Shown here one piece after another: positions 20,501 through 56,900 of a stretch of DNA of 64,000 nucleotides. Where the stretch lies: positions 580,552 through 644,551 of the forward strand of contig KV419399.1 of the NCBI GenBank assembly GCA_001630475.1, read 5' to 3'. This DNA comes from Sistotremastrum niveocremeum HHB9708. Taxonomy: Eukaryota; Basidiomycota; Agaricomycetes; Sistotremastrales; Sistotremastraceae. Position 1 is the stretch's first letter. Each line of letters starts with the position of its first letter. The notes under the pieces were generated by a model. The model had not been told where the DNA came from. It ran no database searches and saw only the letters and a list, made by a program, of their open reading frames with translations. A program made the position numbers and the translations under genes.

Positions 20501-21850
20501 CCTGTTCTTTCGTATCGCACCTTCTAATCTTGGAATGCCGCGCCACCGAGCCACCGTGCCACATTTCGCCTATTTCTTCCCTGATTCTATTTTTATTTCC
20601 CCGTATGTCTATGATCTATGCTGTAAGTTATGGGACATGGGAAATGTGGCGGTACATACGAGATTCTCAGGCCTCTGGGTTGGTGGAAGCGCTGGGTTGA
20701 GTCTACGGATCGTTTGGCCGTAGTGTATGACGAGCCTGAGCTGCGTAGATTATCGCTGTTGCCGAGCCGGAGCTTTGGGATTGAAGCGACGGACGGAGCA
20801 GGTCCAGGTGTACAACTTTCATTGACTGACCGGGCGAGCGGGCGGGAGCTATGAGCGAACGAAGGAAGGGATGAGCGAAGGAACGTTCTTCCGCCCGAGC
20901 CGATCAGACATGACAACTTGACAAGGAGCAGGAGAAAGCGGACAAGGAGGAGACAAGGTGACTTTGTTCACTTTGTGATTTAAATCATATATCCTACAAA
21001 TCGATCGAATGTAGAAATACACATTTGGGGGGTCTACGTCTGACGAAAGATATTCGGGAATGTATGCTCGGTCTGGTTCTCCCAGAGTGCCAGTGTTCTG
21101 TTCTCATGCATTGGCATATGGAGTGTGGCATGGGATGGCAGATATTCCGCGGACTGACGGGCTGGACTCAGGATCAGGACACCCGTGCGGATTGCGGATG
21201 TAAAGGATATGATATATCCCAGGAACCCCCGAGCCTTATTGTTCTCCTCGTCGTCACCACTGCCACCGGTCCACGGAGTTCGATCGTGCCACGGTCGGCC
21301 TAGGTTAGATGACAAAAGCGCTGTTGCTGTTGCCAGTCCCTGGATGCTTGTCAGACTGTCTGGGCGCTCGAGATCTCGTGGTGTCTCGGAGCGTTGACGA
21401 CGACGACAAGGCTTATTATGCAGAAGAAAGGTGGTTACGATGGTGTACCCTTGTGTACTCGGCTGTAAGAAAGAGTGACGAGTGAAGGAGCGGAACTAGA
21501 TTGTGGAAATGGTGGAAATGGTGGTGGAAAAGAGGGAGAGCTCTGAACATGGGGAATGATAAGTGAGGAAGGACCCGTAGATTGAATGTGACACTATCGA
21601 GTGCCGAACTGGACCGAACCACGCACCCTTTCAAAAAGGAAGTCGAGCTGTGATTGGTGGCCACCCAGGAACGAGATTGATCCCGGCCGCACCAGAGATT
21701 CGGGTATGCTCCTCCCCGAAATGCACACAATTCTATTGTTCCTCATTCCAGGACCGGTGTTTGTGGTTGTTTGTGAGACAATAAGAGGAGGTGAGTCGGT
21801 GTGGCATCCGGGTCGCGTGAAGGGGGAGACCTAGTTCGTCACGATGGCTG
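14562..21850. other. 7.3 kb gene-poor region upstream of HMG-box gene 1
   Basis: No convincing protein-coding gene was found. Several open stretches exist (for example 15261-15743 with 160 codons), but they are low in sequence complexity, lack splice context and show no motif. The DNA is rich in short imperfect repeats: CAGGCT units at 18251-18271, TGTTCTC units near 19048-19068, CATTC/TTCCA units near 19760, and CTTCATA units near 20095-20145. Such length is striking next to the compact spacing elsewhere in the window. It may be a long regulatory region or a non-coding transcription unit belonging to the HMG gene, or simply decayed sequence. Confidence 0.45.
18251..18271 (+). repeat. Short CAGGCT tandem repeat
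   Basis: Three and a half copies of the hexamer CAGGCT in a row. Similar single or double copies are scattered nearby (for example near 17772), giving this region a low-complexity character. Confidence 0.8.
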
Positions 21851-21853
21851 TAT

Positions 21854-22020
21854 CTCTATAAGACTGAGATTGCGGAGAGGAGAGAGAGCTGCCCTTTGTT
21901 CGTGTCTTCCTTTTCTGAACAGCCTTTGTTCCTCTTGCGTCCCGACGCCCCCGCTCGCCGTAGCAACCCCCACTCCCGACTCCAACTCCTGTCTGTCGGT
22001 CGTAGATTGCCTATTCTACT
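21854..22020 (+). promoter_or_regulatory. Putative core promoter and 5' leader of HMG-box gene 1
   Basis: A TATA-like TCTATAAGA lies at 21854-21862. A start site about 30 bp further on would give a leader of roughly 130 nt. The leader is pyrimidine-rich and contains no ATG before the chosen start at 22021, which supports that start over the further-upstream in-frame ATG at 21801. Confidence 0.5.
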
Positions 22021-23964
22021 ATGCCCGCCCACCGTGCCCGTCCTTCGCAGACTCTCTCCCCCGACGCTGTCTATTCACACGGTACGTCTATCTCTCTCTC
22101 TCCATTACTTCCCCGACTAATAGCAATGCAGATGCCCAGCCGACGTTCAACATTATCACTCCTACCCCTCGCGCACTCACATTCCCCGCCATCGAAATCC
22201 CAGTCTACGAAGCAGTGAACCACCTCACTCTCTCCTCCTCCCCTCACTCCTCTCCTTCCCTATCCCCCTATTCATCGCCTGAGCCTTCAACAGATTACGC
22301 AAGTGCTCATTCACCTTATACACCCCACTCCTCCCTTCCTCGTCGCTTCGACTCTCCCGAATCGTCCTCCTCTGCACAATTCTCACCCTCTATCTCTAAC
22401 GAAGTCAACTTCGCTCTCCCCATCACCAACCCGAAAGCCGCCGCCCGTCTTCGCGCTGGTCCTCCTCCCAAGAAGGGCGATCCCCTATACATCCCCCGTC
22501 CAGAGAACGCATTCATCCTCTTTCGCAAGGATGCAGTAGCGAAGATGCGAGCGGCGCAATCACTCGCTTCTCCCGATTCGGAAGATGGGAGAGTAAAGGG
22601 CAAGAAACAACGTCAGGCGGATATGTCAAAGAGTATCTCTAAGATGTGGAAAGAGCTGCCTCCGGATGAGAGGGGGAGGTGGGAAGAGATGGCGGCGAAG
22701 ATTAAGAGAGAACATGAAGCTAAACATCCGGATTATCGATATCAGCCTGCGAGACCTGGGAGCAAACCTAAGGGGAAGGGCAAATCCGATCGACCTGTTC
22801 TGAAGCGGAAGAAGACGGCGGGGGATGATGATGAAGATTTCGCAGCGGAGGTTGGAGGGATGAGTGAGGATTTGGCAGTTGTCGTTCGTGCCACTCGTGG
22901 TCCTCGACGAGCTTCCACCTCCACCTTCGCATCCACCTCCTCATCCCAAGCTCCCCAGTCTCAGCAGTCGAGCGAAGGAATCCTCCTCCCCTCTCTCTTC
23001 CCCGCTTCCCGCTCTCCATCTCCACGCGCCCGCTCTCCTCTTCGAGGCAAGATGATTTGTCAACCATTAGCTATGGACCCGAGTCCACCTCCTACGCAGT
23101 TATTCTTTCCTTTGAGAGCGGATCATTCGAGGACTATGTCCCTTGATATGGGATATTCGCATTCTCATCCTGGACAGCCTGGACAACAGCCTGCGATGCA
23201 AGTGCAAGAAGTCTTCTCTTCGCCGCATTATACGGAAATGGTACGTCCCCCCTATCCCGTTCTATTTTCGACGAATGGGAACTGATGATTGGGTTGTGTT
23301 GTAGTCTTCGCCTCAGTACGAATCGACGTACAACGACGTATTCACCGAACCGATGACAGTCGAGACAAACCCCTGGTCCCCCAACCCCGTCGCACACCGC
23401 GCCATCGCTTCCTCAACCGGTGTACACGGACGAGCCCGAGCACTTTCACTTCCCCAACCCGACTCCCTCTCCCTCTCCCGCTTCTCCTCCCTCCCCCTCT
23501 CCTCCTCAGCAGCACAGTCAATATCCCAAACACATACTCCCCCACCCACACGTCCATCTCTCAATCGCTGGCAATCCGCTCTCCCTCTTCCTCTCTCAAT
23601 AAATACTTCTCCGTCGATTTATGGAGGAGGAGGAGAGGCGGGGAGTGTGAGCGGGAGTGGACCGGAGAGTCCGTGGAGTAGTGCTTCGAGTCCTATGCCT
23701 ATCTCTGCTGACTCCCTTCCCCATCCTCACCACCCTTCTCACGAGCCCACTCCCGATTCGCCTCTAGCGAACTACTCCACCAACACCAACCTCCCGTACC
23801 CCGCTTGCCTACCCGCCCAAACAAACCCTTATGAGAGCTACGCAATAAATGGTATGAGTGGAGGAGTAGGGGAGGACGAATGGATGGGGATGGTTACGAG
23901 TCCTGATTTGAGAGAGTTGAGGGAGTTGGAGGGGTATATATTCGAGATGGGGGGTGCTTCGTAG
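22021..23964 (+). CDS. HMG-box transcription factor 1
   Basis: A nuclear, sequence-specific DNA-binding protein of the SOX/MATA HMG type is predicted (609 aa from three exons: 22021-22081, 22132-23240, 23305-23964, all in phase). The HMG box spans roughly residues 141-225: YIPRPENAFILFRKDAVAKM, a loop carrying GKKQRQADMSKSISKMWKEL, then PPDERGRWEEMAAKIKREHE and KHPDYRYQP. The PRPxNAFILFR start is the signature of fungal mating and developmental HMG regulators. A Lys-rich stretch (KGKGKSDRPVLKRKK) follows and likely serves as nuclear localisation signal. The rest is Ser/Pro-rich, as expected for an activation region. The start fits the TATA-like box 160 bp upstream and the first intron phase. 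It is flanked on both sides by several kb of gene-free DNA, unlike other genes here, which suggests complex regulation. The specific orthologue cannot be fixed by eye. Confidence 0.9.
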
Positions 23965-34272: not shown

Positions 34273-34656
34273 TCACTGCCTTCGTTCAAACAACTTTGAC
34301 AAAAGGAGCCATGCCTCCCGCGATGTTTTCATGGGGTCCAAATGTGGGTAAAGGCTCTCATCGACGGACAGAATGATGAAAGCAAGAGCTTGCTCATCTT
34401 GGCTCTCTTGGAGCGTCGTTGTGTCGTGTGGAACAGATGCCATTGAAAGGTCGCTATCGGTGCCACCCTTTTCGGGGTCGGTCTCTTCCTTTGTGTCTTG
34501 TGGTTCTAATTTTTCTCCAGTAACGTAGCCCCAGAGACCACGTCCTCTAAGTATAGCACGCATTTGAGTCCTCCAAATCATGTAATTTTCTGCCCCTTTC
34601 AACTTGACTACCAAATCGAGCAAAGCAACGAGCTCCTCGAAGTCCATAGCTGTCAA
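34273..34656 (-). mobile_element. Ty1/copia Gag fragment (fossil)
   Basis: A 127-codon minus-strand stretch matches the N-terminal Gag region of fungal Ty1/copia LTR retrotransposons: KLKGAENYMIWRTQMRAIL near the start, GLWGYVTG in the middle, and the late ILSVDESLYPHL...EAWLLL segment of the copia Gag-polypeptide family. Nothing recognisable as protease, integrase or reverse transcriptase lies next to it, and no long terminal repeats were seen. It is a broken remnant that keeps only part of one gene. Age cannot be judged without LTRs. Confidence 0.75.
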
Positions 34657-36074
34657 TATCCGCTGCTCAAGGCGAACGAGTCCTGGGCGGCTAGTGGAAA
34701 TTTTATTCGATGAGATTAACGAGGACTCTGCTTCGAGAAAAGTCGAAAATGTCGCTCACAATTTTCGAAACAATAGCAAACGATGACCAGAGATCGGAGT
34801 TGGCGGAGTTGAGGCGGAGAGTCAAATTGACTACGAAAAGGGAGGACCAAACACCAAGCCAAACAATCGCCTCTTGGACTCCCCCATCGACTGTTCGCCG
34901 TCGATCGGATGCAAGAAGTCCCAGGCAAGAGGTCACTCAAGCTCATGACCTCTTCGAAGGCTCCTCGCCTTGGACGCTAACTATCATCCTCTATGACCCA
35001 AAGATCCTCCGGGGGAGGGTGGGATGATATTCAGCCCTCATCGGTTCGACCAGTAGATTACGACGTGCCTCTTTGTATCTCATAGTCTATCGCGTTACCC
35101 TCCCTCGAAGATGAAACGAGAGACTCGTATCATCATCACGATACTGTCGTGATCGGCTCTCAGCTCACACTGAGAGCAGGTTTTTCAACCTCCAGCGACG
35201 TTCTTGTCGCTTATTTACATAACGTCGAGTTGTGTATATCCCGGTCTGGGATTGTTCATGTGTCCTGTTCAGGACGAGGGAAGCAAAAGATTTGCATAAC
35301 CATCAATCTCGAGCTCCCTACTACGATGAGACATCGTATCGGCCCAAGTCCGGGCGCTTTGAATCTTCCGCGAGGGAGATGCAGACCATGGAGTGACAAC
35401 ACTCCAGAGTATTCGTGGCATCAGGAGGTGCTCTGACCCATGAACATCATCTGACCATCCCACGTCGTTCACGGGTGGCCAGACCGCGCTATAGAGTGCG
35501 GTCTGAATCAGTGACAGTAGGATTGGTCGGCATGTGTGTTACACATTGTTTCGAGGTTCTTGGGGGACGTACGAGGATTATGAGAGAACATCTCGAGAGG
35601 TGACCGAGTGTCTAGAAGGTCGACCGAGATTGGGAGCCTTCGCCCAAATTTTTTCCTTCTTTCTGTTTCGTGCAGAGCCCGCGCCAGTGTTTGCCGATAG
35701 AGAACGAGAGTTATTGGACGAAAGTGTTTGTCCGTGCGTTTTATATTCCTTTGAATTTTCCTTGATCAACAGTCCCTCACTGTTTCACCGCATATAGGCC
35801 TGTTCTGAACTGACTACATGAAACATGCCGTACACTCCTAGTGCTGTGACTTACTTTCCGTAGCTATGAAGATGCCGATCATGGGCCTGGTAAATACGAT
35901 TGCAGAAACTTTTTCTCTTCTCTTGACTTCTGGCTGACATCGCTCACGTCTCTTTGGAGATCTACTTTCATTCCCGCCTTACGCTGCCGAGCTCTCCCTA
36001 CCAAGATTTACGCTCTGACGTAGATGACGAGTTCAACGGGCCCTCTGACCTGTTGAGGTTTCGTCCCAATGATC
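34657..36074. other. Intergenic, no confident gene
   Basis: Short open stretches on both strands near 34700-35030 overlap each other and show no motif. No further parts of the neighbouring copia fossil were recognised, and no RNA gene. Confidence 0.4.
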
Positions 36075-37274: not shown

Positions 37275-39470
37275 ATGGCTCAGGCAGGACCCAGCTCACC
37301 AGCTCGCCGGACTGAAGTGCTAGCTCAGGCTCGTCCTCCCATCAAGCGTGCACTTCTCTTCGCATTCGAATACAAGCATCGAGCTCACGAAGACCTTGAT
37401 CTGATTGGCGCTCACAAAGATGCTGATAGACTCAAGAGTTTGCTCATCGGTACGCAGCGAGTCGATCGCAAATCCCATTCCGAACCTATTAATCACATGC
37501 GATGTTGTGCGCAGATCTGTTTGGATTCGAGGAGAAGAACATTAAAGTCGTGTTAGATGAAGGAACCGGACCTGGCGCTAGCCGTATCATGAAAGAGATG
37601 CGATGGCTGAAGAAGGACGTCCGTCCGGGTGACAGTTTATTCTTTCATTGTGAGTCGTACTGAACAGATTTTGTATATCTCGGCTTGCTACTGACATCCC
37701 TTATCAACCATAGTCTCGGGGCATGGAGACCAAATGAAAAACCTCAACGGAGGCGAATCAGATTCCGAAGACGAAGGTTTGCACTCCGTCCTGAACCGGC
37801 TATAGCAAATTTGACCAATGCTCATTCTAAGTGATGTGCCCACCGACCCACAAATTCCGCTTCTCCAGTTCAGTACCTGCCCCTGACGAGCTAGAGGCGT
37901 CTCACCGCCCTCATCGTTCTCGCACCGCCCTCACTATCGCGGAAATGAACCAGGATCGAGACATTAAAGAGGTAAGCGGGACTTCCTGCAAGGAACATTA
38001 CAAGATTGTTTAACTTCATCCTCCATTAGTTCTTTTGGCAGCATCGCGAAGTCAAAGATGACGTATGTGTACTGCTGCGAACCTCTTCCCTCGTTCAGAT
38101 GTTCAATGGCATATCTAGACAATTCATAGGATCCTCGTTAGAGGTCTTCCCGTAGGTTGTCGTTTGACGGTAGGTTGGCGTTGCAGGATACAAACATCCA
38201 ATTAATTAAGTGTTCATGCAGGCGCTCATAGATGCCTGTCATGCCGGGAGCATTCTTGGTAAGCATGTTGGACTCCAGCGGGTTTACATTCTGACAAAAC
38301 TATTGCAGATTTGCCCCATTATCATTGCAATCGCGTGCATCCACCGGGAGGCTCCGGTCAGTGCGCATTCCTCTTTTCAGGCCAAAATATGACTCACGTT
38401 CAAACACAGCTAATCCACCGCGATGTCGTGAGTCACGAACCAAAGCGAGCTCATCTGAAACCTGAATTCAATTGATGTAGCCGAATGCGCGAGGCTGGAC
38501 GGGAATTGGAAGAAGAAGTCAACACGTCATTCGTGGAAAAGCTTTTTCAAGTCCTCGATTTGCCACACGGAACTTTCCAACACGGACACTGCCGTCGTCG
38601 CCGAACCACAGGGAGAAGTGGATCCGCAGGTGTCGTGCATGACGCCTCTTTGGAGCTTCTGTTCCACCTGGGCGTCTTGTCTGCCTAGACGAGAACAGTG
38701 GAGATCATATTTCAAATGGCGAGCAAGATCTGCAGAACATCATGATGGCTATAGTCCGCTCCCGACAGAAGATCCGTTGATGGCTCGCAAAGAAAGACCG
38801 GTATCCACTAGACAACCGTCTGCGGATTCGATCGACGTCACTGGGACGATGCCCGACCGACGACGTTTCATGTCACCGGAGCCGGATGACTCGTCGGACG
38901 AAGACCCACACGAAGTGGCTGAAGTGGTGTGTTCATTTGTTTCCGAAGATCAATTGGTGTTGGCTAACACCACTGGCAACTCAGATTTCTTGGTCCGCTT
39001 CTCGCGACAACCAAAGGTCGTTTGGTAGTGATGATGGCGGTCGCATGGTAGAGGTAAGTTTACACTGTGCCCCCTTTTTGCCTGTCCTGACGTGATATTT
39101 ATCTCAGGCGTTTTGTCGTATCTTGAGTTCGTATACGACAACTTGACAATACGTCTAAGTGTACTGAATAACATATAGGGGAACGTCCGGAAATAAGTTA
39201 TAAAGATCTATTGACCAAGATCAAGTGCGATCCTTGTCTTTCTCTCCATCTAAATGGGCCATAATGACGGGATTGTTTAGTTTTTCGTTCCATAAAGCTG
39301 GCACACAGCTTGCGTCAGAATATCCGAATCATAAAGATGCTCCGGAGTGGATTGCGCAAGAGGCTCAACTGGGCAGCTCAAACCGACTAGTGAGTGGTGT
39401 TCTTTGATCAGCATTGTCCCAGAACTCTCAATCTTTATTGCAGAATCTTGAGGACATCATCCGGATCTAA
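37275..39470 (+). CDS. Caspase-fold peptidase 1 (metacaspase-like, Peptidase_C14)
   Basis: Metacaspases are Ca2+-dependent cysteine proteases that cut after Arg/Lys and act in cell death and protein quality control. This multi-exon gene begins MAQAGPSSPARRTEVLAQ and goes almost at once into the p20 domain: RALLFAFEYKHR, GAHKDADRLKSLL, DVRPGDSLFFHFSGHGDQ with the catalytic His codon at 37722-37724, then NLNGGESDSEDE (acidic Ca2+-binding-type loop), and ALIDACHAGSILDLP with the catalytic Cys codon at 38237-38239. A long acidic, poorly conserved linker follows. The p10 part, ISWSASRDNQRSFG plus GGRMVEAF, is near 38999-39125. The end is WIAQEAQLGSSNRL then LEDIIRI and a stop at 39468-39470. There is no long prodomain. 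About a dozen introns have GT/AG ends; junctions in the linker (38400-38800) are uncertain. It is the first of a tandem set of three and the most canonical around the dyad. Confidence 0.85.
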
Positions 39471-40132
39471 AGCACAGCACCGACCAGTATCTAATTGTAC
39501 ACCACGGACTTTTTGTATTGACAACGTTGTTTTCTCGCTTTGATGCTTTCATTATACCTATATATTTCTCGTCTCTTGTGTCTGGTAGTGTTGACATTAT
39601 GCCGCCATTAAATATGTTGGCGAACGCCAGGCTATCGGTCAGTTCCGGTTGAGTGCAGCTGAGGAGCCGCCACCTTGCCCGCCTCCGGCACTCTGGCTGG
39701 CGGTGCACAGCTTGCGTGCTCTAGTGCAGTAACCGATAAATGAACATTCAAAGTGCTGTCTAGGATTCTGGATATTCCAAAAGTCTTGAAACACTTGATT
39801 AGCGATGGCTGAGCAACCGATCGCCTCTGCATCCTGTTTCACTGCAGGTCTTGTACTACTGGCGATATTCTCTCAACTATCGTGCTCGATCGTATACTTA
39901 TTGGCAACAAGACCGTTCGGCTTACACCCTTGCTAACGGCGATCGCATCATTATCATGTACCTTTCCCGGAATACATGTCCTAAGTGCATGTTTGCGCAG
40001 CGGTCAGTTCACAATAGTGTTAATATCAGTGAGGCGACTGACGGTTCGGTCCACACAACCCCAGGTTATTAGTGTACGACATGGGGTGCTTTAAAGAAGC
40101 TTTCGATTGCCAGACGGTCCACCCAGTCGACT
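39471..40132. other. Intergenic between metacaspase-like genes 1 and 2
   Basis: About 660 bp. Short overlapping open stretches only; no extra caspase motifs (GHG or DACH) were seen, so there is no fourth copy here. Confidence 0.5.
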
Positions 40133-42271
40133 ATGTCGGTTCTGTCCCTCCCTCAGCGAACGACGTACGCTGGTACCAAGCGTGCTCTCTGCATCGGCCT
40201 CGAATATAAACATTCGACTCTACCAAATGCCCCCGATGAGCTCCCTGGCACCCACTCGGATGCGAAAAGCATGGCGCAACTCCTTATCGGTACGTGACTC
40301 ATACTCTTTCCATTTAGTCCCATCCCCACCTCGACTAACCTCCGTTCTCCAGAAAAATGTGGTTACCTCCCTGAGAACGTCAGAGTCGTTCTCGACGACG
40401 GTCAGCAGCCTATGCCCAACAAGCATGTTATCGAAGGTTGGCTCCGGTGGCTTCGACGGGGCGCCCGCCCCGGGGACACCTTATTCTTATATCGTGCGTT
40501 AGCCTTGTTCATTATCGCCTCGATCATTGTGATTCATACCATCCCTATTAAAGTCGCGTGCCATGGGGTCCAAAAGCATAACCTGAATGGCGAAGAGACT
40601 GATCGATATGACGAAGGTAGGCGTTTGCCGTTCATTACCGACATTCGCTTCATGGGTTCCTAGTCGTTGTGGACGCGTGTTATCAATTTACACCCGAAAC
40701 CAGTCTTGCCGACGATACGATTGCAGCAAAGACGGAGGTGGCCAATCATCATACGATCGCCGATCACTCCGGGGCGGGACGTCTTGCTATTCCTAATCCG
40801 AAGATCGCGGATGTACGTTCTTGCTCTTTGATCCCATGCATCTTCTCACCTGTCAAACATATTCAGCATCTTAGCCAGTATGCGGGTGTCCGAGATGATG
40901 TGGGTTGTGTTCACGTAACACCAACTTTCTCTGACTGTCGGCTTTGAAGCTAATTCACAAGATCCTGGTCAAGGGACTTCCACCAGGTGTTAAACTCATC
41001 GTGCGTAAAAGCCTTCTATGAACAAGCGCTATGATCTCAATGATCGCTAGGCCGTTATCGACGCGTGTCATTCGGGATCGATGTTGGGTATGTTGCCCCT
41101 ATCCCTCGTGTCCGATCAAACCTTCAACATGATCAATCTCCAGATTTACACAATAGCTACCATGCTAATCGCAATCGGTTAACGAAGAGTAAGACCCTAC
41201 ACTTCATCGAACTGATCTTTCACTCATATCTTTCACAAGTTTTGAGACGTCTGGGCCACATCAGTAAGTTTTAAACGAAGCTATGATTATCCACTGGCTA
41301 AACTTGATCTCCAGTACCGCGCGTCAAATACAAATTGAAGACGATCTTCGGGCGTGCATGGACTATGAGCATAGCATCTGACGATGACTCTATTTTGTCT
41401 CTCGACGAGGACTCTCGAGCGATGAGCGCATCGGCGAACTGGGACCCCGACGAAGCCGGAATCTCCGCCGAGGACTGTGAGAAGGACAGTGATGAGATTG
41501 CTTCTCGATCACTCAGTGCCTTTCGGAGATGGTTCCACAGAATTACCAACAGACAACCTATATCCGAGCCTCGGGTTCCCCAAGAAGAAGACGTGTCGGC
41601 TACTTGGCTCTGCGGACTAGACGATTCTGCCAATGTCGGGTGCTTTGGACCCCTTTGCGAAGAGCCGGAGCTCGAAGAGAATTACGACGAGCCTCTTCCC
41701 GATGTGGTACGAGAACAGCCACCGTATGCCCTTTATTGGTTGAGATTGACACGTTATTAGATAAGCATCGCTTCAACCTTGGACCATCAGAGGGCATTTG
41801 GAACTTCCAAAGGCGGAGTTTTGACCAAAGTCAGTGTCAATATCGTGTCATTGCTCTAATTCACAAATGTTGTGCATTATAGGTCTTGCTGGAAGCAATG
41901 AGTGCGTGGAAGATATTTTATCCACTGACCCCTGAGTCTCATTCGTTCAACAGATCAAAATCAGAAGAGAACCTGGAAGCAGCTGGTCGATAAGATTAAG
42001 TATGTCTACTTCGTAACCCTACCTCATTCCGTGTGCTGAGGCTGTGCTTTGTAGCACCGATCTTCACGCGGCCATGAGGCAAATGTCGAAAAAATTCCGG
42101 AATGAACCAGATTGCCCGCGAGACGTACGGGAGGAGTGGGTCCAACAGCAAGTCGAACTACGGAGCCTGCAGCCACTCGTACGTTACAACCCCCACGATG
42201 TTTTGCATCGCTCACTTTTATCCCGGCGCCGTTAGACTCAAAAGAAATTGAACGAGATTGTGGCTTTTTAG
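40133..42271 (+). CDS. Caspase-fold peptidase 2 (metacaspase-like)
   Basis: This gene starts at ATG 40133 (MSVLSLPQRTTYAGTKRAL) and enters p20 directly: CIGLEYKH, GTHSDAKSMAQLLI, NVRVVLDDG, GARPGDTLFLYLACHGVQ with the His codon at 40562-40564, HNLNGEETDRYDEVVVD, and AVIDACHSGSMLDLHN with the Cys codon at 41066-41068. The linker is long and very acidic (SDDDSILSLDEDS, PELEENYDEPLPDV). The p10 segment ISIASTLDHQRAFG...GGVLTKVLLEAM follows, then a C-terminal domain shared with copy 3 (IDLHAAMRQMSKKFRNEPDC, EEWVQQQVELRSLQPL) ending in AF and a stop at 42269-42271. The usual SGHGxQ around the catalytic His is ACHGVQ here, keeping the His but replacing the Ser and the residue after Gly. Strong similarity in sequence and intron positions to copy 3 shows a tandem duplication. 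Catalytic activity is plausible but unproven. Confidence 0.85.
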
Positions 42272-42819
42272 CCTGCTCCTTTCCTGGAAGGTTTATGATA
42301 TCTTCTGTACCCAGATGTGTCTTTATTCTCCTGTAGCATTACCAATAATCCCCTAATAATGACAATCACGGGTCTTTGCTCTACTTGTGCTATGAACCAA
42401 TGAAGAGTCAAGGGAACTGCCGAATGATCATGTTCGCTTTATCTGCTACTGAGCTACACCCGCTACTATTGGCAGTGAGCTTACAAGGGGATGCTGAGTG
42501 CATCCATTGATATCCTCTCACCTATTCTGGCAGCACCCGCAATGTGGAGATTAACATCGTCGCCGACGGTCCCCGCGGGCAGCACGCCTGTATCCACATC
42601 CACACAACTCACAGCATATACTTTCTCGACGTAGAACAGCCTTCGTAACGGCAGTTCTGCCACCTCTATGTGCTCCCCAGTGTCCCCACCTCTGAGAAGG
42701 CCCGAGGTTCCCCAAATTCAAGAGCATAAGATGAGGAGTCCTACGACAGGAAGGCCCATCCACCGTGATCTTCTGACTGACTGAAGATCTGTGTGGCACC
42801 TTACACTAGGGACTCATTG
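42272..42819. other. Intergenic between metacaspase-like genes 2 and 3
   Basis: About 550 bp with no convincing exon. Copy 3 may have a further upstream exon here, because copy 2 has about 19 residues before the conserved KRALCIGL block and copy 3 begins only one residue before it. Confidence 0.45.
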
Positions 42820-44933
42820 ATGAAACGGGCACTATGCATTGGCCTTCAATATGAGAATTGTCAACAAGACAACCCTCCTGACGTTCTGCCTGGGGCGCAC
42901 TCCGATGCGGAGAGTATGCGTCAACTTCTAATCAGTCAGTTATCTGTTATTCCCCAAGTCACCGATTAGCCCTCTAGCGTGGTACTGATTGTCGCTTTTG
43001 GATTCCTTAGACAGGCAAGGTTATGACGAAGATAATGTCAAACGCCTCCTTGACGACGGGAAGGGCCCAGCACCCAATAAACATGTCATCGAACAGCATC
43101 TTTGGTGGCTTAAACGAGGCGCTAGAGCAGGAGATACTCTGTTCCTATATCGTGAGTCCCTTTCCACTGCCATCTCAAATATTTGTCTGACGTCTTGATG
43201 CTCAGTCGCTTGTCATGGTGATCAAAAGCCTAATTTGAACGGTGAAGAGACTGATGATCTGGATGAAGGTGCATCACATCCATCTCGGCACTTTGTGAAA
43301 CTCACAAGTCTTTAGTTGTCGTGGATCCGGGCTATGAATTCGCCCCTAAATTGAAAGCAAAGACTCGAACCTGGACACGAAACATTCTGTCTTTCCTCAT
43401 CCGTGGTCGGCGACTCCGCACAATTAAGGTTCGGGAGGAGGTAGCTGAGGTGAGACAGACATAACTCGATCCTTTCATCAACTCACTGTTGACACTGCAG
43501 CACCTGCGTCACTTTGAAGGCATTCGAGACGACGTAAGCGCATACTCTGGTGATCTGAGTCTCTGCCATGATATACTAACTGTCATCTGCCATGCTAGTA
43601 CATACACAAGATTCTTGTTAAAGATCTTCCTCCCGGAGTGCGTCTGATTGTATGCACTTTTCTTGCACTGTCTCTGTATGTCCATCCGCTGACGCGTGTG
43701 TAAGGCGGTCATCGACGCTTGTCACGCCAGCTCTATGCTCGGTGCGTTCACTTGGTGACGACCTTCCGATTTATCACTGACTGAAATATCAGATCTCCGC
43801 CACCGTTATCAATCGAGGTGTCCTAAATGTGTAGCAAATATTCCGCACGCACCTCAGAATGATCGGAACATGAGAGTCGTTGAGTGTTATCATCTCATCG
43901 GTACCTTATACCCTTCATCTTATAGCCCCACAACTCATTGACTCCTTCAGCAGCACACATCAGAGTGAAGGCCAGACGGCTCTTTGACTTATTCTTCCGC
44001 AAAGGCGATCTGTACGAACATCTGTCATCGGAAGACTCCATTCTATCAACATACAGCGGATGTAACGGCATCGGTCCACCCTATGCGTCTGCACAGGATG
44101 ATACAGACAGAGCTCAGGATATCGAGACCCTCGAGAAAGGGCCAGGGGCTGATGATACACATAGGCCAAGATCACTATATAGCAGGATCGGACCGCGTAT
44201 CAGAGAAATGTTGAGTGGGACATGTTGCCAGCGCACTAAATGGCTTCTCGACGAAGACCCAACCTCGCTGGCAGTCGGTAGTCGTATCGAGGGCGAAGGC
44301 CGACGCTGTGACACGCCAGAACCCATGGAAGAAGTTCAGGACGCGACCAGCGGTGCTCTTGCCGATGTGGTGCGATCTCCGACCTGCCTTCTTACTGAAG
44401 ACTAATTGTACCTCGATCAGATTTCTATCGGGTCGACGCGAGATGGACACAGGGCATTTGGAACTGCATCGGGTGGAGCTTTGACGAAGGTGAGGCAATG
44501 TTCCTGGATATTTTCCATCCCTTTAAATTGTTAAACGACAATCATAGGTGTTCTTGGATGCAATGAGTAAGCCACGTGTGCAATGAACTTGCGCCCAGAA
44601 TATTAATCTTAAATTCATAGACGAAGATAAGCCAAGGAGTTGGGCGCAGCTGATCGATAAGCTCAAGTCAGAATCTCTCTATTTGGCAGATAGGCACCTC
44701 ATCTCATATTCTCACAGTGTTGACCTACACGCGGACATGAGGCAGAAGTCCAAGGCATTCAGGAACGATCCGGATTGCACAAGGGCGGAGCGCAAAGAAT
44801 GGATTCAACAACAGGTTGAACTGCGGAGCTTGCAAGAATTGGTCCGTGCTGTTCGGTGTCGCCATCCGTTTTACTGATATGCTACGATCACATGCAGACT
44901 GAGGACAAGTTGAATGAGATTGGGTCCTTCTAG
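42820..44933 (+). CDS. Caspase-fold peptidase 3 (metacaspase-like)
   Basis: A close paralogue of gene 2. From ATG 42820: MKRALCIGLQYEN, GAHSDAESMRQLLI, NVKRLLDDGKG, GARAGDTLFLYLACHGDQ (His codon at 43214-43216), NLNGEETDDLDEVVVD, and AVIDACHASSMLDLRH (Cys codon at 43720-43722), followed by a Cys-containing segment (RCPKCVANIP). A long linker (LFDLFFRKGDLYEHLSSEDS up to SGALADV) precedes p10: ISIGSTRDGHRAFG...GGALTKVFLDAM. The Gln that normally follows in the p10 motif (DxQ) is His here. The C-terminal domain (VDLHADMRQKSKAFRNDPDC, KEWIQQQVELRSLQEL, DKLNEIGSF) matches copy 2, and the stop is at 44931-44933. Introns agree with copy 2 in position and phase, including the one just before ISIGS. 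The start is the first ATG before the conserved core; an upstream exon cannot be excluded. Confidence 0.84.
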
Positions 44934-51211: not shown

Positions 51212-52987
51212 ATGTCCCGCCAGTCTTCTCCTTCTGCTTGTGAGTGTTATCCTCGTTTATAGCACTTCTCCCTCTCACTCTATTCCCTTATCAAGCTGAA
51301 TCGTCAGATTCGACGACATCCTTTGAAGTTAAATTCGCAACTAACATCACCCCCGCCTCCTATCCACCTTCGCTTTCCTCTCTCGAACCAACACCCGCCT
51401 TACTCGACGTTCCTCTGAAAGCTGCTGATGGCACCGAGATCGAAGTGCTCACGAACCTGGACACCGCTCAAAAATCTAATACCGTTCAGCGCCGGCTGCG
51501 CAATCGTCAGAAGAACGGCGACACGACTCACGTCCCACGCCCCGCCAATGCCTTTATCATCTTTCGCCGCTACTACACCAATAATGTCCACAAGCCAGGG
51601 ACCGTTGATACCTCCAAGTCGACCTTGAGTAGGATCATCGGAGAGGCGTGGAACGCCTTAGACCCTGAGCAACGCAAGCCCTTCGACGATGCCGCTAAGA
51701 GAGAAAAAGCCGCTCACGCGCTGAAGCATCCCGAATATCAGTTCAAGCCTATCCACAGCAAGAGACCGAAGAAGAATGAGAGGAACGCGACTCCCGCGTA
51801 CGATGATGATTATCAGGAGTATACCAAGCTAAAGCCATCGAGACTTGCCGCCCCCGCCCCGTCGGGCACCCGTCGCCGAGGTCGTCCCGCGACGCGTCAC
51901 GAAGCTTCTCCTTATCCATCCCGTTCACCGTTATCGTCTCGCGACGTCTCCCGCGATCCTACACCTGCACCTCCAGGAACATTGTACCCAGCGACGACAA
52001 CTCTTCCTGCTACCTTCCATGCGCCCGCACCACAGCCTTATGTGCCGTACCAACACACCCTGCCATCCGGTCTGGGACGCCGCCCAAGTTCCGTGCCTCC
52101 TGCGCAAAACTTTGGCTTCTCACAGCCTCAGCAGTACAACAACTCATTCTTCCCCATTACGGTACCTTCTTTGCCCATGATGCCCCTTGGTATGCCACCA
52201 TTGTCCGATGCGCTCGATTTGGCGACAAAGGATATCTCTCCAAGGAGATCGCGGCCCAGCTTTGGATTCAGTGGTAACTTGGCGGGATATGATATTCAAA
52301 TGGATGAGGCGCCAACTTCTCAAGGTCTTCTGGTGCGTATTCTGATCATGGTTGCGATGAATATTTGATTAACGTTCTCGATAGGGTTACGATCAGATGC
52401 GTAACTCGCTTTCCGAAGGCCATGATCCTTTGAATACTTTCAACTCTATTCCTTTGAGTGTTCGTCGTCCTTCAGCAGAGTGGCAACCTCAGTGGAGTTC
52501 GCCTCTCGCGCCGTTGCCGCTTCAGCCACGCCAGAAGGGACCCCATGAAGATGTCGTCTTCACGAACCCCTTCAGCCAATCATCGGACACCGCGAGCTCC
52601 AGCAACCCATCTCCCCACTCTCTCGCATCTCAGCTCGCCCCATCTCAACTGGATCTCATCTCTCCCCTCGACAACATCTCGGTCTCTTCGACTACCGCTC
52701 CTACATCGAACAATGCGCATTCTTTGAGCAACATGTTGACGTATGATGCGCCTGTTCACGCCAATGCTCTGGATATGCGAGGGCTTGACCTCTCTACCGG
52801 TCCCATGGACATGGGTCGTGAGCGCAGGTTGTCTTCGATGTTGGGCTTCAAGACGACTTCGCATCATCATGAGCTGTACCACCAGGGTCTTAGGCACGAA
52901 GGTATCTTGCCCGAGATGCCTGCTCATGAAGCCGACATCGACATGAGCCAGTATCTCCACGATACGAGCATGACCGTCGGGATGTAG
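51212..52987 (+). CDS. HMG-box transcription factor 2
   Basis: Three exons (51212-51239, 51296-52332, 52385-52987) join in phase to a 555 aa protein. The first exon (MSRQSSPSA) splices to SESSDSTTSFEVKF. The HMG box spans about residues 88-155: HVPRPANAFIIFRRYYTNNV, then TSKSTLSRIIGEAWNALDPE, RKPFDDAAKREKAAHALKHP and EYQFKP. As in the first HMG gene, PRPxNAFIxFR marks the sequence-specific fungal class that controls mating and development. Basic segments after the box (KRPKKNERN, RRRGRPATR, the latter like an AT-hook core) likely add DNA contacts and nuclear import. The remaining two thirds are Pro/Ser/Gln-rich with a His-rich end. An in-frame ATG-less extension through the first intron is open, but the spliced start explains the phase and a GTGAGT donor. 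Confidence 0.9.
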
Positions 52988-53910: not shown

Positions 53911-56900
53911 TCAGTCCTCCTCCATCGCCGACGTCAACGGCGCCCCCAATGCCTCGCGGATGACCTCTCGTGGTCGAGTCCTGAAGAACATCGTATGGGC
54001 ACTGCCTGTCTCCCATGTGTTCGGATTGGTGGTTCGAGTTGAATTGGTACGTCGTTCTAAGTCCTGGCAATCAGATGCGAATTGAAAGAAGGCTCTCCCG
54101 TAGCGTTGGACGTGAGCCAAGAAGCGACGGTCCTGGTATTGGATCTGGTATCGGAGTGCATGAGAAAACCAGTCGCAAAGGTCTGCCGCGTGAGTCATAT
54201 CTTCGAGGAATGTTGTACGATCGAATATGCCGCTCATCTCTTCATTAAGCAGGTCGTCATCCTCGTCGTCCCCCCTCTCCTCCCCCTCGCCATATTCACC
54301 ATTCACGCCGTCGTCAACAGCATCAATTTGAGCAAGGACCGGTGGGACTCGGGGGGCTGCGGGCTCTTCGTAGAGCGGGATGAGCGATGGATGTTGCCAG
54401 AAGGGAGTGGTTCGGCGGCGCGAGACCTCGAGGAAGAAGATGGGCGGTACCGGTTCCACCAGCTGAATCAGGTGTTTGCAGTTCATGAACCGACTTTCGA
54501 CGAAGAAGCGACACGTGCAGACCCATTTGTACGGATTAGGTGCGTACGCAGTATCGTCTGGATTTGTAATCTGAGCCTTCTCACAGCGCCGCCATTCCCG
54601 TTTGAAGGCTTTGCGCCATGCCGGTAACTCTCGATAACGTGCGATCGGCCGCATTATCACATCTAACTTGCGATCATATTCAGGCACTAGCTTCTCGACC
54701 AAGATCCAGCAAAGAAGATCAATACGAGGTTTATGGAAGTGATGGAGGAAGTCTTTCTTGATACGACGCCAACTAGTGAATGGAAGTTGGTGAGTCCTTC
54801 ATTGTCTCAATTTATCGGTGCCACGTACTGAGATTCCACTATCATGGTAGTTTTGAGGACTGGAATGTCCGGATGAACGGATCGTGACCACAGCTCCCAG
54901 CGGCCATTGCGATACCAGTTCCCCCACAGGTAAGCCCACACTTCCGGTAGATCATTGCGCTCGCAGTATTTATACATTTGCTCAACAGCCCATTGTCGGA
55001 TCCCTGCCGGACTTGGGTGCGAGAACCCTGGGATCAAAGGATGGGCATTGTAATGGCGCACCATCATTGCAACAATATCAACCCGGTGCTCTTCCGGACA
55101 GAAGGTCCGACGGTCTCGTGGGGGAGGAGTTGTGTCGGCAGGGATGGCTGGGGTGGTGATTGGATCCTTAACGATGAGTCGGACAAAAGGTTTCTTGGTC
55201 GGAGCGGTGTCGAGATGGGCAAATGATGTGGTGTTGTTGTTGTCAACATCCATAGTGTTTGATGATGGCATTGTGGGAGGGGACTCGAGTGATCGCTGCG
55301 TGAGCCCTGGAAGACGAATGGTCAGGGAATTGGGCCCAACCACTGGTTCTGCAAGAGTGCCGATTGGGTCGACATCGTCTATGACACCACCCTCAAACTC
55401 GCTCGGATCGGCTCTTGTGGTTGGGACAAAGCTGGTGTTGATAAAGGCGAATTCAGAGTGTGCGGAGGTTGGATCGTAGGGAGTAGTAGATAGTTTATTC
55501 TTTGCAAGGCGCTCCCGCACAGCTCGCTTCAAATGCCAGAGACATATAGAATGTTTTGATGCTGGCCAAAGCTTCTTGGCGGCCCCAATCTCTGCAGTGT
55601 CCTTGTTGGTATGGACAAATTGAGGGCTTAGTCCATATTTTGCCTTCAGTGCAGCGAACCATGAATGGATGGCATTGAGTCGTTTACGAGGTGCAATTGA
55701 TGAAGCGGTCGACACGAAACAGTATGATAACGGAAATCCGGCATTATCGTGTTCGCCCAACGTGCTATACAGCTCGAGGTTTAGGGCGTTCGTACTGACT
55801 AATAAATTGATCAGTCTTCAAGCTCTCGGAAGCTTCAAGAAATGTAGACTCACATGTTGCATCCACCCCGATCTCCACAATCTTGCCTCGCAAATCTCGA
55901 TTAACTCTCTTCAAGCCAAATGCTAAGATGGTGACTCCTTCCGTAGCTGGCAGCTCCAACAAATCGACTTTCCCTTGCTCAGTAAACTCGGCCAATAGTT
56001 GGCGCGCCGAAAGTAACTGATCGTCACTTCGCTTCCACAACTGCTGACTGAATATAGTCCACGCAAACTGAATTTGCTTCGCAGTGACATAAGGCTTCCA
56101 ACGAATATAGCCCATTTAAGGATATCCGCAAGTATACTTGCCACGGGTACCTGCCTAATACACCGTAGGCAGGTATGAGATTATTGGCTGGACATTTAGG
56201 CAGGTACCTGCCTGCTACTTTTACTAGTAAATAGGGGTTATTTAGGCAAGTATAGGCAAGTAAGTACCTGTACTTGCCAAGTACAAGTATGGGATTTTGG
56301 CTGAAAAAAACAGGCAGGTACCTGCATGCAGGTACCCAGGTAAGGCAAGTATATATTTGTTGGAGGCCTTACAGTGACATGCGGAAATTCTTGACGGATT
56401 TCAGGGACCAGTGACGAGGGGGTGGACCACAGAATATTCTCGCGGATCATCTGGGCGGCCTTCTCGGGAAGAGCGAGGTTGTAATATGGTACATGATTGT
56501 CAGAGTGAGAGAAGCGAACGGTGAGGATATGGATCTGGGGATTGGAGTGCTGTTCTCGGCATCGAATCCTGAGGCTACTCTGGCATGAAAACCTTAACAT
56601 GCCGAGAGTATCTCGTGCCTTTGCTTGCGGTCTGGTGCTTTTCTTTGTGTGCTTTCGTCGGTCGGCATCCTGTGAGCACCAATATCGTGTTTCATGGCCC
56701 GAAGGCTCGCCTGACTCGTGCGCAAACTTGTTATGATCGCGAACCCTGAGTGTGTTGTTTATCAGGATCTCTTGAGCAGATTGTAAGAGAATAAATACAG
56801 CTTACGTGAATCGCCATCCGCTGACACTCCAGATCTCCTCGGATGTAATTCTGACGCGTTCTCGAAAAGTCACAAGGGGGTCGGCGGGTAGGAAGATACG

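Follow-up and report, generated by a model that had tools for sequence, protein, structure and literature searches.

Three neighbouring metacaspase genes, here named MC1, MC2 and MC3, were analysed in a stretch of 64,000 nucleotides from the basidiomycete Sistotremastrum niveocremeum HHB9708 (contig KV419399.1, positions 580,552 to 644,551; this whole stretch is referred to as the window, and positions are counted from its first letter). The similarity of their products to plant type II metacaspases is limited to the gross layout. According to introns and structure scores, MC1-3 appear to share descent with the fungal type I metacaspases. A type II-like layout seems to have arisen independently in a fungal type I lineage. 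The introns are the main carrier of the argument for type I descent. The three gene models are as follows.

37275..39470, + strand: MC1, 15 exons, 471 aa, prodomain-less metacaspase (gene model, Pfam C14)
40133..42271, + strand: MC2, 15 exons, 461 aa (gene model, Pfam C14)
42820..44933, + strand: MC3, 14 exons, 463 aa (gene model, Pfam C14)

The manual models of these adjacent, intron-rich genes are intact and free of in-frame stops, and the interval 37275-44933 extends exactly from the start codon of MC1 to the stop codon of MC3. All 41 introns (14, 14 and 13 in MC1, MC2 and MC3) are of the GT-AG type and 47-76 nt long. A first-pass annotation, made from the letters of the DNA, had proposed three same-strand metacaspase genes on the basis of their His, Cys and p10 motifs, and all of these were confirmed in frame: SGHGDQ, DACHAGS and ISWSAS in MC1, ACHGVQ, DACHSGS and ISIAST in MC2, and ACHGDQ, DACHASS and ISIGST in MC3. 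The DNA pattern of the Cys motif was observed three times in the window with 0.11 occurrences expected, a number reached by none of 100 shuffles. The His/Cys dyad and the scores for Pfam Peptidase_C14 (PF00656; 75.8, 68.3 and 59.7 bits for MC1, MC2 and MC3, curated cut-off 21.4), which span p20 and p10, identify the three predicted proteins as members of peptidase family C14. Since p20 precedes p10, the reverse order that characterizes type III is lacking.

37716..37724, + strand: catalytic His motif SGH of MC1 (His codon 37722-37724)
40556..40564, + strand: catalytic His motif ACH of MC2 (His codon 40562-40564)
43208..43216, + strand: catalytic His motif ACH of MC3 (His codon 43214-43216)
38231..38244, + strand: catalytic Cys motif DACHA of MC1 (Cys codon 38237-38239)
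41060..41073, + strand: catalytic Cys motif DACHS of MC2 (Cys codon 41066-41068)
43714..43727, + strand: catalytic Cys motif DACHA of MC3 (Cys codon 43720-43722)
38985..39470, + strand: p10 of MC1 (ISWSAS...) to stop
41761..42271, + strand: p10 of MC2 (ISIAST...) to stop
44421..44933, + strand: p10 of MC3 (ISIGST...) to stop

The N-terminal part ahead of the first core strand comprises 24 residues in MC1, 16 in MC2 and 2 in MC3. As had been claimed in the first-pass annotation, no Pro/Gln-rich prodomain was found upstream of the three genes in the unspliced + strand frames, where the highest count of Pro, Gln, Gly and Tyr in any 25-mer was 10, 11 and 9 for MC1, MC2 and MC3, compared to 22 in the prodomain of the genome's own type I gene. 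The catalytic Cys is separated from p10 by 177 (MC1), 160 (MC2) and 181 residues (MC3), which is about double the span of type I (79 in the own type I protein, 80 in 7qp0, 82 in 4f6o) and compares with 201 residues in AtMC4. The first-pass annotation had estimated 170-200 residues, and all three spans lie well above the about 80 residues at which that annotation had drawn its line. Hence, judged by the predicted models and the unspliced upstream frames, both the N-terminal Pro-rich prodomain and the short p20-p10 linker of type I are lacking, and the type II combination of no prodomain and a long linker is present. The AtMC9 chain was left aside for this measure, as its row misses some linker residues and its linker length is consequently too short. 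One open exon alone codes for 148 (MC1), 130 (MC2) and 138 (MC3) residues of the linker, and the linker ends at two introns common to the own type I gene.

38309..38926, + strand: linker-coding stretch of MC1 (exons 8-10 including introns)
41144..41706, + strand: linker-coding stretch of MC2 (exons 8-10 including introns)
43793..44369, + strand: linker-coding stretch of MC3 (exons 8-9 including intron)

The structure prediction of the linker that the first-pass annotation had suggested was realized for the large linker exon of MC3, which was modelled in isolation by AlphaFold2 (AF2) with the other two linkers as alignment. It yielded a mean predicted local distance difference test (pLDDT) score of 44.6 and no usable model. 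This score is weakly consistent with disorder, and the linker of MC1-3 is probably disordered. A CPxC motif, a putative metal site, occurs early in the linkers of MC1 (CPEC, 38424-38488, spanning an intron) and MC3 (CPKC, 43819-43830), with none in MC2.

A second expansion, overlooked by the first-pass annotation, is situated within p20. The distance from the catalytic His to the Cys amounts to 98, 101 and 96 residues in MC1, MC2 and MC3, whereas it is 52-56 residues in the own type I protein, two Metacaspase-1 chains, TbMCA2, AtMC4 and AtMC9. Between the calcium ligands D173 and D189 (TbMCA2 numbering, as for all residues below), 57, 60 and 55 residues were counted compared to 12-15 in the type I and type II chains, from which this insertion of about 40 extra residues is absent. 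Only one of the two expansions, the linker, thus resembles type II.

37832..37971, + strand: exon 4 of MC1, most of the p20 insertion between D173 and D189/190
40664..40812, + strand: exon 4 of MC2, p20 insertion
43316..43449, + strand: exon 4 of MC3, p20 insertion

The canonical type I gene of the genome, located on contig C17, features a P/G/Y-rich prodomain and 11 introns, and its product is 68% identical in the core to the yeast Metacaspase-1 chain 4f6o. Seven introns of each of MC1, MC2 and MC3 coincide with introns of this gene in alignment column and phase, whereas random placement of the MC2 introns gave a maximum of three shared positions in 200,000 trials. A leave-out spliced aligner recovered these shared introns in 7/7 cases for MC1 and MC2 and in 6/7 for MC3. 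Likewise, type I structures are the top solved relatives, the best type I entries of the PDB reaching 98.9, 79.8 and 70.1 bits for MC1, MC2 and MC3 versus 47.6, 41.1 and 37.7 bits for AtMC4. Identity over 216 core columns amounts to 40.7, 33.8 and 34.7% with the own type I protein and to 28.7, 25.0 and 25.0% with AtMC4. No similarity to the AtMC4 linker was detected (z of 0.4, 0.5 and 1.0 with 300 shuffles each), in a test that is weak because the linkers of MC1 and MC2 also align with each other no better than shuffles; the fast divergence of the linkers limits what it can tell about kinship with type II. Moreover, the type II cleavage motif, which was read by ourselves from the AtMC4 and AtMC9 chains as [KR]x(0-3)LP[LFIMV], was not found in the three linkers, so that MC1-3 feature neither the conserved basic cleavage site nor the homologous linker expected of type II. 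An Asp at position 189 was also considered as a type I marker against AtMC4 and AtMC9; it was seen in one alignment only, was placed differently in a wider alignment and was dropped.

The array of three described in the first-pass annotation is part of a larger family. Searches with protein queries revealed at least 11 additional divergent paralogues on two contigs, for which automatic and approximate models were made; the automatic method dropped an in-frame piece of the own type I linker and gave 60 instead of 79 residues.

Contig C6, about 269-283 kb (268500-283000), - strand: C6a-d, four tandem metacaspase paralogues
Contig C6, about 675-680 kb (671500-681400): C6e and C6f, about 30 kb past the window end
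Contig C59, about 52-79 kb (49500-82000): C59a-e, five paralogues

Trees of 9 and 20 rows were calculated, in which type II is represented by two chains only. The 20-row tree unites MC1-3 and the 11 paralogues in one clade of 14 (support 97/96), and the 11 share many intron positions with the trio. Within this clade, MC1-3 group with C6e and C6f (99/97). MC1 is 47% identical to C6e and 41% to MC3, and the branch uniting MC1 with C6e and C6f has a support of just 53/13; judging from these values, the three array members need not be mutual closest relatives. A grouping of MC1-3 with type II was rejected (p 6e-6). Given this rejection and the missing type II cleavage site and linker homology, descent from plant or algal type II metacaspases is not supported by the sequences compared.

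The family is heterogeneous in both expansions. The p20 insertion occurs in five of the 14 members, namely MC1-3 and two of the 11 paralogues (C6e and C6f), and the span from D220 to p10 varies from about 23 to 313 residues, exceeding 100 in nine of the 14. In C6e and C6f, the insertion occurs together with a DACNSG motif and with Pro/Ser-rich linkers of great length (about 224 and 313 residues), and four of the five C59 paralogues have very short linkers. C6b-d carry DCCHSG; the raw frame of C6a reads DSSHSG, with Ser at the position of the catalytic Cys, in a region where its model is unsure. A hydrophobic stretch, by eye a possible membrane helix, occurs in the frames upstream of C59b and C59c, and the frame upstream of C59a is S/P-rich. 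Another C14 gene of a different kind, with a DCCHS motif, was located on contig C5. A search of the own genome with the Pfam C14 profile found only the C17 and C5 genes and missed the array, since individual short exons yield low scores. Collections of prokaryote and virus contigs contained 149 and 33 pattern stretches, respectively, none of which was confirmed; both searches are silent on the spread of the family among fungi.

MC1-3 keep the dyad, the S1-pocket residues D95 and D211 and the calcium ligands D173, D189, D190 and D220 (roles according to PMC4357240). Between MC2 and MC3, nonsynonymous (pN) versus synonymous (pS) divergence amounts to 0.22 vs 0.80 in p20 and 0.19 vs 0.80 in p10, compared to 0.52 vs 0.74 in the linker and 0.44 vs 0.80 in the insertion; no pN/pS ratio is given, as synonymous sites are saturated. 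Both the linker and the insertion change more rapidly than the catalytic core, which is clearest for MC2 and MC3. From these patterns, MC1-3 are probably old, maintained and active proteases with fast-changing regulatory parts.

We consider it likely that MC1-3 belong to a fungal family that radiated from type I, lost the prodomain, lengthened the linker and acquired an insertion in the calcium loop, with the probably disordered linker acting as a gate. The ancestor would have been a fungal type I metacaspase whose Pro-rich prodomain was lost, whose p20-p10 linker of about 70 residues was lengthened to about 150-175 and which received about 40 residues between two calcium ligands. The resulting enzymes would be monomeric, calcium-activated proteases cutting after Arg or Lys. 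Their linker may assume the gating function of which a type I prodomain is capable, and may be cut or displaced upon a rise in calcium. The insertion may retune the calcium trigger, and triggers and targets may vary among the paralogues. It would be plausible for the enzymes to function in stress or non-self-triggered cell death. As regards precedents, the mobility of the linker has been described as allowing it to replace the prodomain as autoinhibition, and a region of the AtMC4 linker blocks calcium activation and substrate access, with activation involving linker cleavage (PMC9820594).

Several observations weigh against this reading. The S1 residue Cys92 is replaced by Ala, Thr and Ala in MC1, MC2 and MC3, Ser156 by Ala in MC2 and MC3, and the QTSAD motif of p10 is lost in all three, owing to which specificity or activity may be altered. 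The p10 of MC1 is less constrained when compared with MC2 and MC3 (pN 0.45 and 0.47). The 9-row tree is compatible with a grouping of the trio with type II (p 0.091), as is the 20-row tree with one of the five insertion carriers and type II (p 0.067), and in the latter all fungal rows are held together by a support of only 79/76. Linker gating in MC1-3 is proposed by analogy, and the AF2 prediction beside it is of low confidence and was made with three sequences and an isolated exon. Finally, prodomain removal is not required for the activity of type I (PMC4357240), which renders prodomain gating uncertain in type I itself.

The altered S1 residues 92 and 156, the lost QTSAD and the Ser at the catalytic Cys in the raw frame of C6a would also fit pseudoproteases, which retain the caspase fold for binding or dominant-negative roles without cutting. 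This explanation is unlikely but keeps some weight; it is opposed by the retention in MC1-3 of the dyad, of D95 and D211 and of the four calcium ligands, and by the strong constraint on the core of MC2 and MC3. Very unlikely is a gene-model artefact, in which unrecognised introns within the long linker would hide a short, type I-like one. The leave-out aligner, which re-modelled the genes with a profile of other sequences (MC2 and MC3 each without the other), gave the same catalytic motifs as the manual models and recovered 9/14 introns in MC1, 11/14 in MC2 and 11/13 in MC3. Of the 10 unrecovered introns, one belongs to the core (MC3, 44666/44718) and nine lie in or beside the linker, the variable insertion or the very end of the C-terminus, and three additional introns were suggested for MC1. 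The differing linker-side introns of MC1 and MC2 and the in-frame piece that the aligner also lost from the own type I linker speak for an artefact, but the single open exon that codes for 130-148 linker residues exceeds the introns of 47-76 nt by far, and the linker is bounded by two introns common to type I. Hardly credible, lastly, are true type II metacaspases acquired horizontally from a plant or alga, which would suit the layout (no Pro/Gln-rich prodomain found, Cys-to-p10 160-181) and the two groupings that were not rejected, but not the seven introns in common with the host type I gene, the higher scores of type I structures, the lack of detected AtMC4 linker similarity and of the cleavage motif, or the rejection of MC1-3 with type II in the 20-row tree.

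The term type II-like, which the first-pass annotation had applied to the array, accordingly remains appropriate for the layout and not for descent and type II-specific features, where introns, scores and the cleavage motif disagree with it. Its hedged guess of convergence agrees with the type I introns and scores found beneath that layout, and the p20+p10 phylogeny it had proposed as a check gave a divided answer, rejection of the trio with type II being obtained with 20 rows and not with nine. The preferred reading of a radiated family from type I may be extended to a distinct fungal class, in which the fast-changing linker replaced the prodomain as autoinhibitor in convergence with plant type II, the insertion in the calcium loop sets the trigger, and the paralogues diversified into death or stress proteases with separate triggers in a NACHT-rich fungus; this extension is tentative and rather doubtful.

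With regard to possible cell-death partners, 57 NACHT matches were obtained in the genome (52 above the cut-off), several of them on contigs C11, C43 and C52. The same search also matched 11 of 14 control genomes (3 above the cut-off), and some matches may not be NOD-like receptors (NLRs). The genome is likely NLR-rich; a connection of these matches with MC1-3 would be hypothetical, as would a link of MC1-3 to cell death or non-self response. Gasdermin (PF04598) gave no match in the own genome, which is not evidence of absence, as all 14 controls were silent too. Of 102 open frames with a length of 110 aa or more, 20 were scanned with Pfam. Five gave matches (two HMG-box, HhH-GPD, copia gag and Mutator-like element (MULE)), and these 20 frames included no recognisable cell-death partner. 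The HMG-box frames (21795-23282 and 51244-52365) flank the array at a distance, and fragments of a copia-type gag (34276-34755) and a MULE transposase (54810-55817), both on the - strand, flank it as well.

C14 genes are numerous in many genomes of Agaricomycetes. Fungal metacaspases have been classed as type I, in another sentence of the same article 'predominantly' so, with one or two in most fungi (PMC13208671), and a table from 2005 counted 1-2 in two basidiomycetes, 2-3 in Aspergilli and 1-4 in three Sordariomycetes (PMC1325252). Type I has been assigned to several groups including fungi and protists, and type II to plants and green algae (PMC13304501) or to plants only (PMC5613156). TbMCA2 has been called type II (PMC12914765) but handled as type I (PMC4357240), a conflict which indicates that the types are loosely used. 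In the available portions of the open-licence PubMed Central (PMC) literature, neither a type II layout nor a large number of metacaspases was found described for fungi. The types are usually pictured as a split between kingdoms, fungi having type I and plants and green algae type II, and the layout of MC1-3 crosses that split. Moreover, 14 divergent copies beyond the canonical type I gene depart from the one or two given as typical of fungi (PMC13208671).

Compared to fungal type I (Metacaspase-1 4f6o, i.e., Yca1; 7qp0; the own C17 gene), MC1-3 feature the same p20-p10 order, dyad, calcium-site and S1 aspartates, and share seven introns with the C17 gene. They differ from it in the Pro-rich prodomain, which was not detected, in a Cys-to-p10 span about twice as long, in the added p20 insertion and in the loss of QTSAD and Cys92. 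With plant type II (Metacaspase-4, 6w8s; Metacaspase-9, 8a53) they have in common the long linker and the lack of a detected Pro/Gln-rich prodomain, whereas AtMC4 linker similarity and the conserved cleavage motif are missing and the p20 insertion is additional. TbMCA2 (4afr) is alike in the calcium-site and S1 aspartates but has a short linker, with a core identity of 29.6-33.3%. The 11 paralogues belong to the same clade and differ from the trio in their linkers of about 23-313 residues and in the p20 insertion, which is confined to C6e and C6f; such a range of linkers within one genome makes the roles of linker and prodomain comparable inside a single species.

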